Assembly: GCA_022843825.1 (NCBI GenBank) | Contig: JALHMX010000003.1 | Coordinates: 62,001-126,000 of the forward strand | DNA length: 64,000 bases | DNA from: Pseudobdellovibrionaceae bacterium | GTDB lineage: Bacteria; Bdellovibrionota; Bdellovibrionia; Bdellovibrionales; Bdellovibrionaceae | Reading direction: 5' to 3' | Shown here: positions 24,973-32,717 of the stretch, one piece after another | Position numbering within the stretch: position 1 is the stretch's first letter | How the letters are laid out: every line of letters begins with the position of its first letter | The notes under the pieces: model-generated | Database searches by the model: none | What the model saw: the letters and a program-made list of their open reading frames with translations, nothing else | What the model was told of the DNA's origin: nothing | Position numbers and translations under genes: made by a program

Positions 24973-25986
24973 ATGAAAAAATATTTACTGCTTGCTACTT
25001 GCGTTCTTTTCAGCACTTGGTCTTCTGCAGCTCAGCTAATCAATGGGGCTGGTGCAACTTTTCCTGAGCCTATCTACATTAAATGGTTTTCGGAGTTGAA
25101 AAAAGTAGATCCCGCAACTTCGATTAACTACCAGGGTATAGGCAGTGGTGGTGGCATCAAGCAATTGACTGCGGGAACTGTCGATTTTGGAGCCACTGAC
25201 ATTCCAATGACTACTCAAGAAAGCGCATCCCTTAAATCCCCGGTAATACACATTCCTACAGTACTTGGCGCCGTAGTTGTCAGTTATAATTTAAAGCTTG
25301 ATAAGCCACTAAAACTTACTCCAGATGTGGTGGCTGATATTTTTTCTGGGAAAATCACTAAATGGAATGATGAACGCATTACTAAAATTAATACTGATCA
25401 AATTTTGCCGAATAAAAATATAATCGTAGCCACTCGTGCCGATGGCTCAGGAACAACGGCTGTGTTTTCTGACTACCTGAGCAAAGTATCACCTGACTGG
25501 AAAAATAAAGCTGGTAAAACGGTGGATTGGTTTAGAGGGTCAATTGCTGCTAAAGGCAATGCTGGAGTCACAGGTCTTATTCGACAAAGCGATGGCGCCG
25601 TAGGTTATGTCGAGTTAGTTTATGCGCTTCAAAACAAACTTGCTTTTGCACATATCCAAAACAAAAGCGGTCAGTATATTGAAGCCAATACAAAATCTGT
25701 GTCCGCTGCGGCCACGGGAAAAGTAGCTCAAGACATGATTAAAAATGATTTTAAAATGTCCATAACCGATTCAGATGTCAAAACTGCTTATCCCATCTCA
25801 TCATTTACTTGGATACTGGTCGGCGAATCCTTACCCAAGAGCAAAGGAGAAAAAATAGTAAAAATGCTAGAATGGTCTTTAGGTAAAACAGGACAATCAA
25901 TGGCGGAAGAAATGCATTTTTCACCGCTACCTACAGAATTGCAAAAGGCTGTATTGGCTCGAGTTAAAAAAATTAAAATTCAGTAA
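24973..25986 (+). CDS. pstS: Periplasmic phosphate-binding protein PstS
   Basis: 337 residues with signal peptide (to SSAAQ). PstS motifs: NGAGATFPEPIY, QGIGSGGGIKQ, DFGATDIPM, KWNDERI, RADGSGTTAVFSDYL and GAVGYVELVYA, which form the phosphate-binding loops. CTGGAGG precedes the ATG. First gene of the Pst ABC importer; its stop overlaps the start of pstC. Confidence 0.95.
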   Translation: MKKYLLLATCVLFSTWSSAAQLINGAGATFPEPIYIKWFSELKKVDPATSINYQGIGSGGGIKQLTAGTVDFGATDIPMTTQESASLKSPVIHIPTVLGAVVVSYNLKLDKPLKLTPDVVADIFSGKITKWNDERITKINTDQILPNKNIIVATRADGSGTTAVFSDYLSKVSPDWKNKAGKTVDWFRGSIAAKGNAGVTGLIRQSDGAVGYVELVYALQNKLAFAHIQNKSGQYIEANTKSVSAAATGKVAQDMIKNDFKMSITDSDVKTAYPISSFTWILVGESLPKSKGEKIVKMLEWSLGKTGQSMAEEMHFSPLPTELQKAVLARVKKIKIQ

Positions 25987-26930
25987 TGTCTGAGTTTATT
26001 CATGCTAAATCTATAAAAAACAATGAGGTGCGTTTTTCCGACGCACTTTTTTATAATTTTTTACGACTGATCACCGTTTTAATAATTATTTTGTTTGCTT
26101 CAGTTTTTGTTTTTTTATATCGAAGTTCTGAGCCCCTGTTTTTAGAACAGGGCTGGAGCTTTTTTAAAGAAACGACATGGAGTCCCACCACCGACACATA
26201 CGGTGTTTTAGCCTTTGTCTATGGGACGTTAGTTTCTTCATTCATCGCTTTATTATTTGCCGTGCCGGTCTCAATGGGAAGTGCACTTTTCTTAACACAA
26301 CTTTGCCCCCGCTTTTTAGTCAGCCCCATTCGCTCTATCATTGAATTACTCGCCGCTATCCCCAGCGTTGTCTACGGCCTATGGGGAATATTTGTACTAG
26401 CTCCATTTATTAAAAACTATGTTCAACCTGTGCTCAGCGGACTCACACCAGGTTTACCTTTTTTTCAGGGGCCTCCTTTTGGTTTAGGTCTTTTTACTGC
26501 GGGTTTAATTCTAGCCATCATGATTATTCCTACGATAACCACTATTTCAATAGAGATTTTCCAAGCTGTTCCTAAACTCTATAAAGAGGGCGCAAAAGCT
26601 TTAGGAGCCACCGATTGGGAAGCTATAAAAATTGCTGTTATAAAACCCGGGATGGCTGGCGTGTTGGCCGCAATTACTTTGGGGTTAGGACGTGCCATGG
26701 GGGAAACGATGGCCGTCACTATGGTCATTGGTAATCGCGCCGATATTTCTTCATCTTTATTTTCACCGGCAGCGACCATGGCCAGTGTTATTGCTAATGA
26801 GTACGCTGAGGCCGGCTCTAATTTGCACAGCGCCAGTTTAACAGCGGTAGGTTTCACCCTATTACTTATTTCTATGTTAGTTAATTTTGGAGCTCGTTAT
26901 ATAATCAAAAAATTTAGAGGGCCCATTTAG
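25986..26930 (+). CDS. pstC: Phosphate ABC transporter permease PstC
   Basis: 314 residues, six predicted membrane helices, the first at about residues 28-50. The inner-membrane permease signature is EGAKALGATDWEAIKIAVIKPG, followed by GLGRAMGETMAVTMVIG, typical of PstC. The ATG shares a base with the pstS stop codon and the stop overlaps the pstA GTG start, indicating tight coupling. With PstA it forms the channel. Confidence 0.94.
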   Translation: MSEFIHAKSIKNNEVRFSDALFYNFLRLITVLIIILFASVFVFLYRSSEPLFLEQGWSFFKETTWSPTTDTYGVLAFVYGTLVSSFIALLFAVPVSMGSALFLTQLCPRFLVSPIRSIIELLAAIPSVVYGLWGIFVLAPFIKNYVQPVLSGLTPGLPFFQGPPFGLGLFTAGLILAIMIIPTITTISIEIFQAVPKLYKEGAKALGATDWEAIKIAVIKPGMAGVLAAITLGLGRAMGETMAVTMVIGNRADISSSLFSPAATMASVIANEYAEAGSNLHSASLTAVGFTLLLISMLVNFGARYIIKKFRGPI

Positions 26931-27796
26931 TGAAATCCCCTTATAATTTAACGGAGCAATCATTCAATAGAAAACTAAAAAATAAATTCATGAAATTTAT
27001 TTTTGCATTTCTAACTGTTTTAGCGCTTATTCCTTTATTTATTATTTTTCTACATGTGATTAAATCTGGCATAAATGCCATAAATTATGATTTTATAACT
27101 CAACTGCCCGCGCCTGCAGGGCAGCCCGGGGGCGGAATCGCGAATGCCATATTAGGCAGTATCACGATGGTGGCTTTAGCAGCTATTATAGCAGTTCCAC
27201 TTGGCGTCCTGGGGGGAACCTATCTTAGCGAGTACAAAGGTGGAAAACTGTCTTCAGTATTTAGATTTGTCGTCGATCTGATGACTAGTATTCCCAGTAT
27301 TATTGTGGGGCTATATATTTACTCAGTGATCGTGCTACCTATGAAGGGGTTTTCTGCCTATGCGGGCGCTCTGGCCTTAGCACTATTAATGTTTCCTATC
27401 GTGGTTAAATCAACAGAAGAAATTTTAAAACTGCTTCCAACCAATATTCGCGAGGCGGGGTTGGCTTTAGGCATTCCGCGTTGGCGCGTTATTGTGTCAA
27501 TTATTCTGCGAGGCAGTGTGCCTGGAATTACCACTGGAGTTTTATTAGCCATTGCTCGTGTTTCTGGAGAAACTGCGCCTCTTTTATTCACAGCATTTGG
27601 AAATCAGTTTTGGGCCAACAGCCTAAATCAGCCTACATCAAGTTTAACAGTACAAATATATACATACGCCATCAGCCCTTTTCAAGAATGGCATGAGCAA
27701 GCCTGGGGAGCTGCATTTATATTACTACTAACTATTTTTATTTTTAATTTAGTTGCGCGCTGGCTTCTCTTACGTAATAAAAATGAATACATGTGA
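26930..27796 (+). CDS. pstA: Phosphate ABC transporter permease PstA
   Basis: 288 residues, six predicted membrane helices. PstA signatures: [58 protein letters not shown] and [17 protein letters not shown]. The GTG start overlaps the pstC stop by one base and its stop overlaps the pstB start by four, as in translationally coupled operons. Confidence 0.94.
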
Positions 27797-28578
27797 GTAA
27801 CACTATGAATAAAGACTCTAAATCAAACATTCTAATTATTGATCAATTAACTGCTGGCTTCGGCAAAAGTGAGATCGTTAAAAAAATTTCTATGCAAGTT
27901 ACAGAAAAAGAAATTACCGCACTTATTGGGCCTTCCGGTTGTGGTAAATCTACATTTCTAAGATGTCTAAACCGACTTCATGAAGAAACACCGGACGCCT
28001 GGGTTCACGGCAAAGTTAATCTAAATAATAAAAATATATATGAGAAAGGTACTGATCCTGTTTTTGTTAGATCTCAGATCGGCATGGTATTTCAAAAACC
28101 CAATCCATTTCCTTCTATGTCTATTTACGACAATGTCGCAGCCGGCTTAACTATCCGTGGAATTAAGAAAAAAACCTATATTGCCGAAGCCGTTGAACGC
28201 AGTTTGATTCAAGCTGCACTTTGGACCGAAGTAAAAGACAAATTAAAATCCGCGGGTACTAGTTTATCCGGTGGACAACAGCAAAGACTGTGTATCGCGC
28301 GCGCTTTAGCTATTAGCCCCCCCGTTATTTTGATGGATGAGCCCACCAGCGCATTAGATCCAATTTCGACGGCCAAAATCGAAGAACTACTTCATCAATT
28401 AAAAAAAGAAGTAACAATTGTTATTGTTACTCATAATATGCAGCAAGCCGCAAGGGTCTCAGATCAGACGGCTTTTTTCCTTTTAGGTGAGTTGATTGAA
28501 ATGGACAGTACAAAAAAGTTTTTTACCAACCCCAAAGATCCTAGAAGTGAAAATTATATTACCGGACGTTTTGGATAG
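27793..28578 (+). CDS. pstB: Phosphate ABC transporter ATP-binding protein PstB
   Basis: 261 residues. Walker [10 protein letters not shown] (near residue 46), the PstB-specific [20 protein letters not shown], signature LSGGQQQR, Walker [14 protein letters not shown] and switch [17 protein letters not shown]. It energises uptake through PstC/PstA. The start is GTG at 27793 (overlap with pstA); an ATG at 27805 is an alternative. No phoU follows; the sensor kinase gene starts 4 bases after the stop. Confidence 0.95.
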
Positions 28579-28582
28579 TCTT

Positions 28583-30010
28583 ATGAAAAAATATTTCCCT
28601 TGGGCCTATTTTGGAAAACTTACTATCACCCTATTTGTTACCTTAGAAATAATGTGCATTAGTGTTGTTCTTTTTTTTCGCCAGACAATTAACTCCACCT
28701 CCATCGTACAACTTTTACTTCTAAGTCTACTGAATATTGCAATCTCTTTATTTATAGCCTATCGCTTCACCTTGCCATTAAAGAAGGTTATTTTTAAAGC
28801 CATGCGACTTGCTAATAAAAAGCTCTATTATCAACTCGGCGGCGATCAACTTTCTCAGGATTCAATCTATCAATCTGAGCCCATGGAGTTTTCAGAACTA
28901 GAAAGTTATTTAGACCAGATTAAAAACAAGCTTAAAAATAAAAGCGTACAAGCCGCCCAAGGATACGAAGAGTCCAAAACCCTAATGTCTGAAATTGAAG
29001 ATGCTGTTGTTAGCGTAGACCAAAATGGAGAGATTCTTTTTTTTAATGCGGCCTTCGCCTCTCAGTTTATAGACAAAAAAGCCCTGTCCTTATCGTTGAA
29101 CTCTAAATTAAAACTTTCTTTAGTCTTCAGAAAAGAAGAGCTGGTTAAGCTGTTTGAAGAAGCCTTTATAAATAAAAAAGCAGAAAAGGTCCAATTGCCT
29201 ATTTACACCTATTTAAATGAGGCCGAACGTGTGTTTTCTATTTCCATATCTCCGCTTAAAGACAAAAAGACCGATGAGGTCTTTGAGATTTTGGGAATTT
29301 TTCATGATATCTCAGAAATTAAATTAGCAGAAAGGCTAAGAACAGAATTTGTTGAAAATGCTTCGCATGAACTTCGCACCCCTTTAACTTCAATTATTGG
29401 CTATTTAGATATTATAAAAGCTGAACTAAAAAGTGGTCATACGCAATCAACACTCGATCATCTTCAAATCGTAGACAAAGGTACCGCTAAACTAAAAAGT
29501 TTAATTGATGATCTGCTGACTTTATCGCGATTAGAAAATAAAGAGCCCTTAAATCTTCAAAAACTTGATCCGCAAATGATCACAGAAGATGCGATCTCAA
29601 AACTGACTCCTTTAGCGCTAAAGAAAAATGTTACACTCAAATACTCAAGTCACAATGTCTCTGCGATCACAGCTGATGCGGCCAAAATAGATCAGGTCCT
29701 TACTAATCTTATTGAGAATGCTATAAAGTATAATCGCGACAATGGTTTAGTCGAAATTAATTGGTCTTTATCACAACATGGCAAAGGATTTCAGATTGCT
29801 GTAAAAGATAATGGATTCGGAATTGCGCCTGAACATCAGAAACGCTTATTTGAAAGATTTTATCGCGTTGATAAAGCTCGATCCAGAGACATCGGCGGAT
29901 CAGGTCTTGGACTTGCTATTGTTAAACATATCATGAATATGCACGGTGGCACTGTTTCGGTAAAATCAGATATGGGCCTGGGGACTGAATTTACCTGCAC
30001 CTTTCCCTAG
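28583..30010 (+). CDS. phoR: Phosphate regulon sensor kinase PhoR
   Basis: 475 residues from ATG 28583; longer in-frame starts would overlap pstB. Two membrane helices (about residues 10-32 and 42-62) without a large periplasmic loop, a HAMP/PAS-like region (residues 130-245, EIEDAVVSVDQNGEILFFN), then HisKA with H262 in NASHELRTPLTS and the ATPase boxes NLIENAIKYN, VKDNGFGIAPEH and GGSGLGLAIVKHI. This is the PhoR layout: no phosphate sensor domain of its own, so it reads the Pst state. It usually needs PhoU, which is absent from this operon. Confidence 0.92.
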   Translation: MKKYFPWAYFGKLTITLFVTLEIMCISVVLFFRQTINSTSIVQLLLLSLLNIAISLFIAYRFTLPLKKVIFKAMRLANKKLYYQLGGDQLSQDSIYQSEPMEFSELESYLDQIKNKLKNKSVQAAQGYEESKTLMSEIEDAVVSVDQNGEILFFNAAFASQFIDKKALSLSLNSKLKLSLVFRKEELVKLFEEAFINKKAEKVQLPIYTYLNEAERVFSISISPLKDKKTDEVFEILGIFHDISEIKLAERLRTEFVENASHELRTPLTSIIGYLDIIKAELKSGHTQSTLDHLQIVDKGTAKLKSLIDDLLTLSRLENKEPLNLQKLDPQMITEDAISKLTPLALKKNVTLKYSSHNVSAITADAAKIDQVLTNLIENAIKYNRDNGLVEINWSLSQHGKGFQIAVKDNGFGIAPEHQKRLFERFYRVDKARSRDIGGSGLGLAIVKHIMNMHGGTVSVKSDMGLGTEFTCTFP

Positions 30011-31578: not shown

Positions 31579-31762
31579 AACGTGCCTTTCATAAATGTTT
31601 ACACGCCCATTAAATAGCAATTATATCTCCGCCTCAAATCTAATATATTGGTTTATAGGCATAATAGGTGTCTAAGATCTTTTCAGATGACCAGCCATCG
31701 TCATTACCTCAATTTTTTATTTGATTTACAGAAAAGGACATGACAGGCTGGCTCAGTTATTA

Positions 31763-31841
31763 CCTGAGTATAAGTCGATAGTATGGTTCGACGTTTCTAC
31801 CGGGCACCCGCAGTGAAAGCTGCAATGCCTGACTACAGAGG
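31763..31841 (+). promoter_or_regulatory. Purine-class (guanine/2'-deoxyguanosine-type) riboswitch aptamer, variant with extra hairpin in L3
   Basis: Aligned by eye with the xpt guanine aptamer. P1 CCTGAGTA (31763-31770) against TACAGAGG (31834-31841) with a 2x2 internal loop; J1/2 TAA; P2 GTCGA/TCGAC (31774-31778, 31788-31792) with loop AGTATGG, which keeps the UAUGG of L2; J2/3 GTTTCTACC (31793-31801) identical to the canonical core, including U51; P3 GGGCA/TGCCT; J3/1 GACTA, with C at the position of C74 (31833), which specifies guanine-type ligands. L3 keeps CC and AA but between them has an inserted hairpin GCAGT-GAAA-GCTGC. The 3' strand of P1 contains the ribosome-binding site (AGAGGGG) of the endonuclease gene, and the 5' strand can instead pair with CTCAG at 31752-31756, so ligand binding should turn translation off. 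Confidence 0.85.
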
Positions 31842-31850
31842 GGATTTTAA

Positions 31851-32717
31851 ATGAAGAGGACGATTTTATTCGTTATCATAGGTTTAATCCAGCTAACGGT
31901 TTATGCCTTGCCTCCAGAGTCCAGAGTTCCCTATTATGGGAGCAATTTCCAAGGGGTTCACACCCAACTTAAAGATGATGATCTGATCCAAGAGCTTCAT
32001 AAAATCGTTAAAAATGCACATATCAAAACCGAAGAAGGTGCTGACAAAATTGTTCCATCTTGTTCCGTAGAAGCTGGCGAGTGTGCCAAACACACAGCTT
32101 ACGGTTATGATCGCGCTCGTAAATTTTTATTCGGCAAGTTCTACCTTGTTCAAACTAACAATGAAGGTGGGAATGGGATTAAAGAGATGTACTGCGATCG
32201 AGTTTATATTGGTAATGACTTTAATAAAGGGCCACGGCCTGGTACTAATGTTATACCCGACCATACAGTTATAAATGTTGAGCACACATGGCCACAATCC
32301 AAATTTAGTGGTCTGTATCCCAAGGATTTACAAAAATCTGATTTACACCATTTATTTCCCACAGACTCCTCTTTGAATTCTTTACGTGGAAATAATATGT
32401 TTGGTGAAGTTGAAGTCGATGAGAAGCAGACCAAATGTGGGGTCTCTCGATACGGCTATGGATCTGGTGGTACCCAACGAGTATTCGAGCCACCAGACAG
32501 CCACAAAGGAGTAGTGGCTCGAGCTTTATTTTACTTTTCAGTACGCTATGAAATTTCTATTCCTGAAGCCGAAGAGCGTATTTTAAAAATGTGGAATAAC
32601 GAGTTTCCAGTGGATGACGAAGAAATGACTCGTAATAATGAAATTGAAAAAGTTCAAATGAATCGTAATCCATTTATTGATTACCCAGAATTAGCAAATC
32701 AGATCGCTGATTTCTAA
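31851..32717 (+). CDS. Secreted endonuclease I family nuclease
   Basis: 288 residues with signal peptide (to VYALP). Endonuclease_1 (EndA/Vvn) motifs: NVEHTWPQSKF with catalytic H145, SDLHHLFPTDSSLNSLRGNNMFGEV and four Cys likely in disulfides. These Mg-dependent enzymes cut DNA and RNA outside the cytoplasm; here prey or environmental nucleic acid is the probable substrate. Translation is probably controlled by the purine riboswitch directly upstream, a sensible feedback from a breakdown product. Its stop overlaps the converging PIG-L gene by 4 bases. Confidence 0.92.
   Translation: MKRTILFVIIGLIQLTVYALPPESRVPYYGSNFQGVHTQLKDDDLIQELHKIVKNAHIKTEEGADKIVPSCSVEAGECAKHTAYGYDRARKFLFGKFYLVQTNNEGGNGIKEMYCDRVYIGNDFNKGPRPGTNVIPDHTVINVEHTWPQSKFSGLYPKDLQKSDLHHLFPTDSSLNSLRGNNMFGEVEVDEKQTKCGVSRYGYGSGGTQRVFEPPDSHKGVVARALFYFSVRYEISIPEAEERILKMWNNEFPVDDEEMTRNNEIEKVQMNRNPFIDYPELANQIADF

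Follow-up and report, generated by a model that had tools for sequence, protein, structure and literature searches.

The endonuclease I gene and its leader

The window, i.e. the whole 64-kb stretch of DNA that was analyzed, carries a gene of endonuclease I that is convergent with a gene for a PIG-L deacetylase-family protein (PF02585; 32714-33637, reverse strand). Slightly upstream, at 25986-30010 of the forward strand, there are apparent phosphate-transport genes (PstC, PstA and PstB-like) and a sensor kinase, named by eye from their translations.

A cmscan search with Rfam 15 produced a single match above any gathering score in the window, RF00167 (Purine) at 31746-31855 of the forward strand. 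The score was 42.9 bits compared to the gathering cut-off of 37, with E=9.6e-4 for the 64 kb against all 4227 Rfam families and E=8.6e-6 when RF00167 alone was searched in the whole genome. A model built from relatives (R1), whose training set includes the window sequence itself, gave 62.3 bits. The search with the Rfam purine model had been proposed in a first-pass annotation of this DNA, and its outcome bears out the purine-family aptamer placed there upstream of endonuclease I. The features of the leader and of the gene, all on the forward strand, are as follows.

31763-31770 (+): 5' strand of P1 (CCU GA GUA), two stretches of 3 bp separated by a 2x2 internal loop (GA/AG); from sequence, covariance model and fold
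31770-31773 (+): A21 U22 A23 A24; sequence reading
31771-31773 (+): J1/2, U22 A23 A24; sequence and alignment of relatives
31774-31792 (+): P2-L2, with P2 formed by 31774-31778 and 31788-31792; covariance model, fold and covariation
31785-31786 (+): G37/G38 in L2, which reads UAUGG; sequence
31793-31800 (+): J2/3, GUUUCUAC (46-53), G46 UUU C50 U51 A52 C53, with U51 at 31798; sequence
31801-31831 (+): P3-L3, with P3 formed by 31801-31806 and 31826-31831; covariance model and fold
31807-31808 (+): C60/C61, kissing partners of G37/G38; sequence
31810-31823 (+): extra L3 hairpin GCAGU-GAAA-GCUGC, peripheral and unconserved; fold and comparison of orthologues
31832-31833 (+): J3/1, A73 C74, with the guanine-type C74 at 31833; sequence and alignment
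31832-31835 (+): A73 C74 U75 A76; sequence
31834-31841 (+): 3' strand of P1, overlapping the Shine-Dalgarno sequence; fold, comparison of leaders and covariation
31838-31843 (+): Shine-Dalgarno sequence GAGGGG; sequence, with the overlap with P1 kept in relatives
31851-32717 (+): endonuclease I, the putatively regulated gene, with a hydrophobic signal-like N-terminus; PF04231, 120.6 bits

The bases of the guanine pocket were all present, namely U22 (31771), U47 (31794), U51 (31798) and C74 (31833). In the minimum-energy fold of the leader, P1 had 3 bp on each side of the 2x2 loop, and P2, P3 and the GCAGU-GAAA-GCUGC hairpin were formed as well; both the internal loop of P1 and the extra hairpin in L3 had been noticed earlier and were reproduced in this fold. 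The folding energy itself was ordinary compared to shuffled sequences (z -0.74); therefore, it is the covariance model and the relatives, rather than stability, that support the aptamer. The start codon is situated 17 nt after U75, and a terminator-like site was not found at the leader. By every sequence feature tested, the window RNA is a member of the RF00167 class.

Conservation of the aptamer among relatives

We observed that U22, U47, U51 and C74 were invariant in 77 non-redundant aligned relatives, in agreement with the guanine-type pocket predicted in the first-pass annotation from C74 and U51. The kissing pairs of the window, G37-C61 and G38-C60, were both G-C in 77 of 77 relatives. 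The paired columns covaried with a score of 0.615 compared to 0.224 ± 0.010 for shuffled columns, and the slid controls were also far lower. Both the window RNA and the relatives lacked the U25-A45 pair found in the Rfam model, which makes P2 one pair shorter. Position 73, an A in the Rfam consensus, was U in about 36% of the nuclease-type members; no covariation was seen between positions 24 and 73.

The distance from U75 to the start codon was 12-16 nt in 106 of 115 nuclease leaders, a spacing that puts the Shine-Dalgarno sequence inside the 3' strand of P1. In the same 115 leaders, the 5' strand of P1 paired better with the Shine-Dalgarno strand of its own gene than with those of other genes (3.97 Shine-Dalgarno nucleotides paired with the own strand compared to 3.30 ± 0.08, with 0 of 500 shuffles as high), a result that is supportive, not conclusive, since related sequences share both P1 strands. 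The outer P1 pairs, those covering most of the Shine-Dalgarno sequence, were formed in only about 50-70% of the sequences. Purine-purine mismatches at the position of the P1 loop were common to five riboswitch-bearing endonuclease I orthologues of the genus.

The L3 hairpin, by which the RNA had been described as a variant aptamer, is present in the window but is not a feature of the class: it was absent from the genus orthologues and is scattered elsewhere, and we rejected it as a functional novelty. Comparable loop hairpins were seen in L3 at loci L135 and L136 (at L135, before an EndoU gene, as a long insertion) and in L2 at L054, L137 and L144, where the aptamers precede endonuclease I genes of one genus.

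Genes downstream of the aptamers in Bdellovibrionota

RF00167 was searched in 60 relatives and then in 242 genomes of the phylum, and the DNA around all matches was read for downstream genes. There were 131 aptamers in 81 Bdellovibrionota genomes from 13 families. Apparently secreted nuclease genes, representing five unrelated folds, were found downstream of 118 of the 131: HNH-like (69), endonuclease I (36, the comparison of homologues suggested in the first-pass annotation), PD-(D/E)xK-like (8), EEP, i.e. endonuclease/exonuclease/phosphatase-family (3), and EndoU (2). EamA transporters (10) and DUF3465 proteins (3) were the other types. The usual targets of the guanine class (purine synthesis, salvage, uptake) were not encountered, and the number of purine-pathway genes downstream of the 131 Bdellovibrionota aptamers was zero. 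The same guanine-type switch thus sits on genes of apparently secreted nucleases across the phylum, and the bacteria probably slow nucleic-acid digestion when purine is sufficient; the feedback on a secreted nuclease that had been proposed for this locus is strengthened by such recurrence before unrelated nucleases.

The source genome has exactly two RF00167 aptamers. It encodes one endonuclease I and one member of the HNH family, and both genes are under the riboswitch. The second copy (56.8 bits, on another contig) is located directly before the gene of the HNH-like protein, which has a signal-like N-terminus. Among 36 relatives, 9 of about 27 endonuclease I genes had the riboswitch, while the tailored R1 model detected no copies beyond the RF00167 matches in 38 relatives. 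In nine whole genomes with related endonuclease I genes (Myxococcus, a Comamonas-labelled record, Bacteriovoracaceae and a Bdellovibrionales MAG among them), the purine riboswitch was absent near the gene and genome-wide.

The source shares its family with the B. bacteriovorus strains HD100 and Tiberius, as expected for the predator lineage assumed earlier. HD100 has three endonuclease I genes, and only the third in genome order is preceded by the riboswitch. The Endonuclease_1 proteins of this strain are Bd0934, Bd1244 and Bd3507 (PMC3593177); therefore, by the order of locus tags, the gene with the riboswitch is Bd3507. The second HD100 aptamer precedes an HNH gene.

With respect to the identity of the products, endonuclease I, EndoU and the two scanned EEP proteins scored over the Pfam cut-offs. 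The HNH group matched Pfam HNH models below the cut-off, and the best PDB matches of its profile were to the HNH of Cas8f with a non-significant E of about 0.03; an AlphaFold2 model (pLDDT 95.5) had HNH nucleases as its best, weak, structural matches. In the PD-(D/E)xK-like group, the E...GELD...EVK pattern was invariant, and the members scanned had no Pfam or NCBIfam match over the cut-off. The top structural ranks for its model (pLDDT 90.4) were almost exclusively nucleases of the restriction-endonuclease fold; the structure matches of this group were weak, the best having E=1.1e-3 and probability 0.97. All full-length nuclease-type products had a hydrophobic N-terminal stretch as judged by a simple hydropathy rule, not by a dedicated signal-peptide predictor.

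Examples of the apparently secreted PD-(D/E)xK-like family are at L009:938-1510 (reverse strand) and L092:392-964 (forward strand), with six more. The EndoU-type RNases under the riboswitch, at L078:706-1509 (reverse) and L135:418-1224 (forward), are from one family of the phylum. DUF3465 proteins were seen at L037, L045 and possibly L015, where the assigned open reading frame begins only 184 nt downstream of the aptamer. For DUF3465, a domain with no assigned function, the other members of the regulon suggest a role in nucleic-acid digestion.

Of the ten aptamers before EamA-type transporters (L035, L056, L060, L112, L127, L128, L129, L133, L134 and L142), nine had the core GTCTCTAC, with C48 and not U48, and a leader of another kind, in which the start codon is situated beyond P1. 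Perhaps these aptamers make a separate purine transporter switch.

Comparison with known riboswitches

The aptamer class, RF00167, is already known. The window RNA shares with the guanine-I riboswitch (e.g. B. subtilis xpt-pbuX) the three-way junction, the L2-L3 kissing G-C pairs and U22/U47/U51/C74. Unlike in the xpt-pbuX type, P2 is one pair shorter, position 73 is often U, and P1 contains the Shine-Dalgarno sequence in place of a terminator. Also, guanine-I targets are genes of purine synthesis, salvage and uptake (PMC9295807), whereas here the targets are secreted nucleases. The adenine riboswitch needs U74, whereas the window has C74. Translational control by a purine-family aptamer is known for the V. 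vulnificus add adenine riboswitch; however, the latter is an ON switch with U74 and a separate sequester hairpin, in contrast to what is seen or predicted here.

For the general concept, there is an earlier example with another pocket: 2'-dG-II of Bacteroidetes already links a purine-family riboswitch to endonuclease I and is also found before other DNA-acting genes. In 2'-dG-II there are C51, a junction G-C pair and a two-nucleotide insertion in J3/1 (PMC8872408); the window RNA has none of these, its J3/1 being A73 C74 followed by U75 paired with A21. In 2'-dG-I, likewise, the equivalent of position 51 is C, compared to U51 in the window.

In riboswitches with direct occlusion, such as SAM-II/V, SAM-III, SAM-SAH and some preQ1-I/preQ1-II, the aptamer with its bound ligand includes the ribosome-binding site, and binding therefore blocks translation. 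The same arrangement is present, and conserved, in the RNA described here, where the Shine-Dalgarno sequence overlaps the 3' strand of P1; however, the folds of those examples are unrelated to the purine class. Purine riboswitches are not among the examples given in the review that describes the direct-occlusion group (PMC10907184). In the literature on Bdellovibrio, the purine riboswitch and nucleases, with coverage of earlier purine-riboswitch surveys being incomplete, we found no report of this regulon. As far as the accessible literature shows, the nuclease regulon, the clade-specific features of the aptamer and direct occlusion by the purine class are new.

Proposed mechanism and alternatives

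On the strength of the anatomy and conservation of the leader, we consider it likely that a purine-family riboswitch with a guanine-type pocket shuts off translation of the secreted endonuclease I at high levels of the ligand, which is most likely guanine. The leader would fold into the three-way junction, as indicated by the covariance model and by the covariation in relatives, and U22, U47, U51 and C74, the invariant pocket bases, would bind guanine. Bound guanine would stabilize P1, whose 3' strand overlaps the Shine-Dalgarno sequence, and the start of the ribosome would be blocked; the location of the ribosome-binding site in P1 and its predicted consequence for translation had been pointed out in the first-pass annotation. 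With no guanine, the weak P1 would open and the nuclease would be made. Digested nucleic acid would be salvaged, with a part of it converted to free guanine by purine nucleoside phosphorylase, and this guanine would close a negative feedback loop on the nuclease. A purine nucleoside phosphorylase specific for guanosine/inosine (TIGR01700, over the cut-off) is encoded in the source genome beside a pyrimidine-nucleoside phosphorylase; therefore, guanine can be obtained from nucleosides. Both DNA and RNA digestion have guanine in common, and this base would suit a set that includes DNases and EndoU RNases. The short P1 of the window with its internal loop, and the outer P1 pairs formed by only part of the sequences, speak against an off-switch. 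Bdellovibrio maybe mostly takes up intact nucleotides, in which case free guanine need not track digestion.

Selectivity of the pocket for guanine, as read from its bases, could differ with U73 and the missing U25-A45 pair. The same off-switch might then respond to a nucleoside (2'-deoxyguanosine or guanosine) or to hypoxanthine, with the pocket reshaped by the short P2 and the variable position 73. We regard this reading as unlikely. The variability of position 73 and the loss of U25-A45 across the clade are in its favor, as is the 2'-dG-II class reported before endonuclease I and ComEC genes of Bacteroidetes (PMC8872408); however, U51 is invariant, while it is C51 that gives the nucleoside preference in 2'-dG-I and 2'-dG-II, there is no insertion in J3/1, and the junction has A21-U75 instead of G-C. 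Moreover, a deoxyribonucleoside sensor would be ill-suited to a regulon in which two genes encode EndoU-type RNases. The specificity for deoxyguanosine, raised as an option in the first-pass annotation, was rejected, since the RNA has U51 and lacks the features of 2'-dG-II. We would likewise give little credit to the broader idea that the Bdellovibrionota nuclease riboswitches are a distinct functional clade of the purine family with the pocket shifted to another product of nucleic-acid breakdown.

The direction of control could also be the opposite, with the ligand freeing the ribosome-binding site or preventing termination, such that guanine of the prey induces the nuclease. It would make sense for material from the prey to act as an inducer, the translational purine switch known from V. 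vulnificus (add) works in the ON direction, and the bd3507 transcript rises within prey (PMC7925074). Still, the Shine-Dalgarno sequence overlaps P1, the very helix that the ligand stabilizes, and the 12-17 nt from U75 to the start codon are too few for either a terminator or a separate sequester hairpin, which makes an ON or transcriptional action very unlikely; transcription termination was rejected, given this spacing and the lack of a terminator-like site in the window leader. That the fold is merely inherited in this species and no longer responds to a ligand is extremely unlikely. The lower score of the window copy compared to its sister copy (42.9 and 56.8 bits, respectively), the internal loop in P1 and the L3 hairpin might be taken for decay, but the ligand-contacting and kissing bases are all intact, a similar P1 loop is seen in the genus orthologues, and the fold is under selection, as seen from the covariation among relatives.

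Implications for predation

For the proposed off-switch, several observations on B. bacteriovorus are of interest. Bd3507 is secreted into the prey compartment, and its transcript peaks at 1-2 h (PMC7925074). In the late phase of predation, the protein goes up about fivefold and a purine-synthesis enzyme declines (PMC12546842); this late rise fits an off-switch only if the guanine level has dropped by that time. The plasmid pEBF11 is composed of the bd3507 promoter, start codon and mCherry (PMC7925074). This construct should carry the riboswitch, and the idea should be testable with existing material.

Deletion of bd0934 and bd3507 raises extracellular DNase activity; the possible causes named by the authors include more translation of another nuclease or an unidentified nuclease, and the six genes that they assayed are not described as including an HNH gene (PMC7925074). 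An end-product brake would give a candidate reason for the raised activity, with the HNH gene under the second riboswitch of HD100 as a candidate nuclease. In B. bacteriovorus, breakdown of prey DNA to monomers reportedly proceeds at about the rate of predator DNA synthesis, which was credited to nucleases being made in sequence (Rosson and Rittenberg, as cited in PMC7925074). A brake on nuclease translation by the end product would help explain these matched rates.

If the pocket were in fact shifted in this clade, a phylum that includes classic predators would be metering nucleic-acid digestion with a sensor class of its own. Guanine riboswitches are textbook controllers of the cell's own purine metabolism. 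Here, a riboswitch of the guanine class appears to govern the secreted digestion of others.
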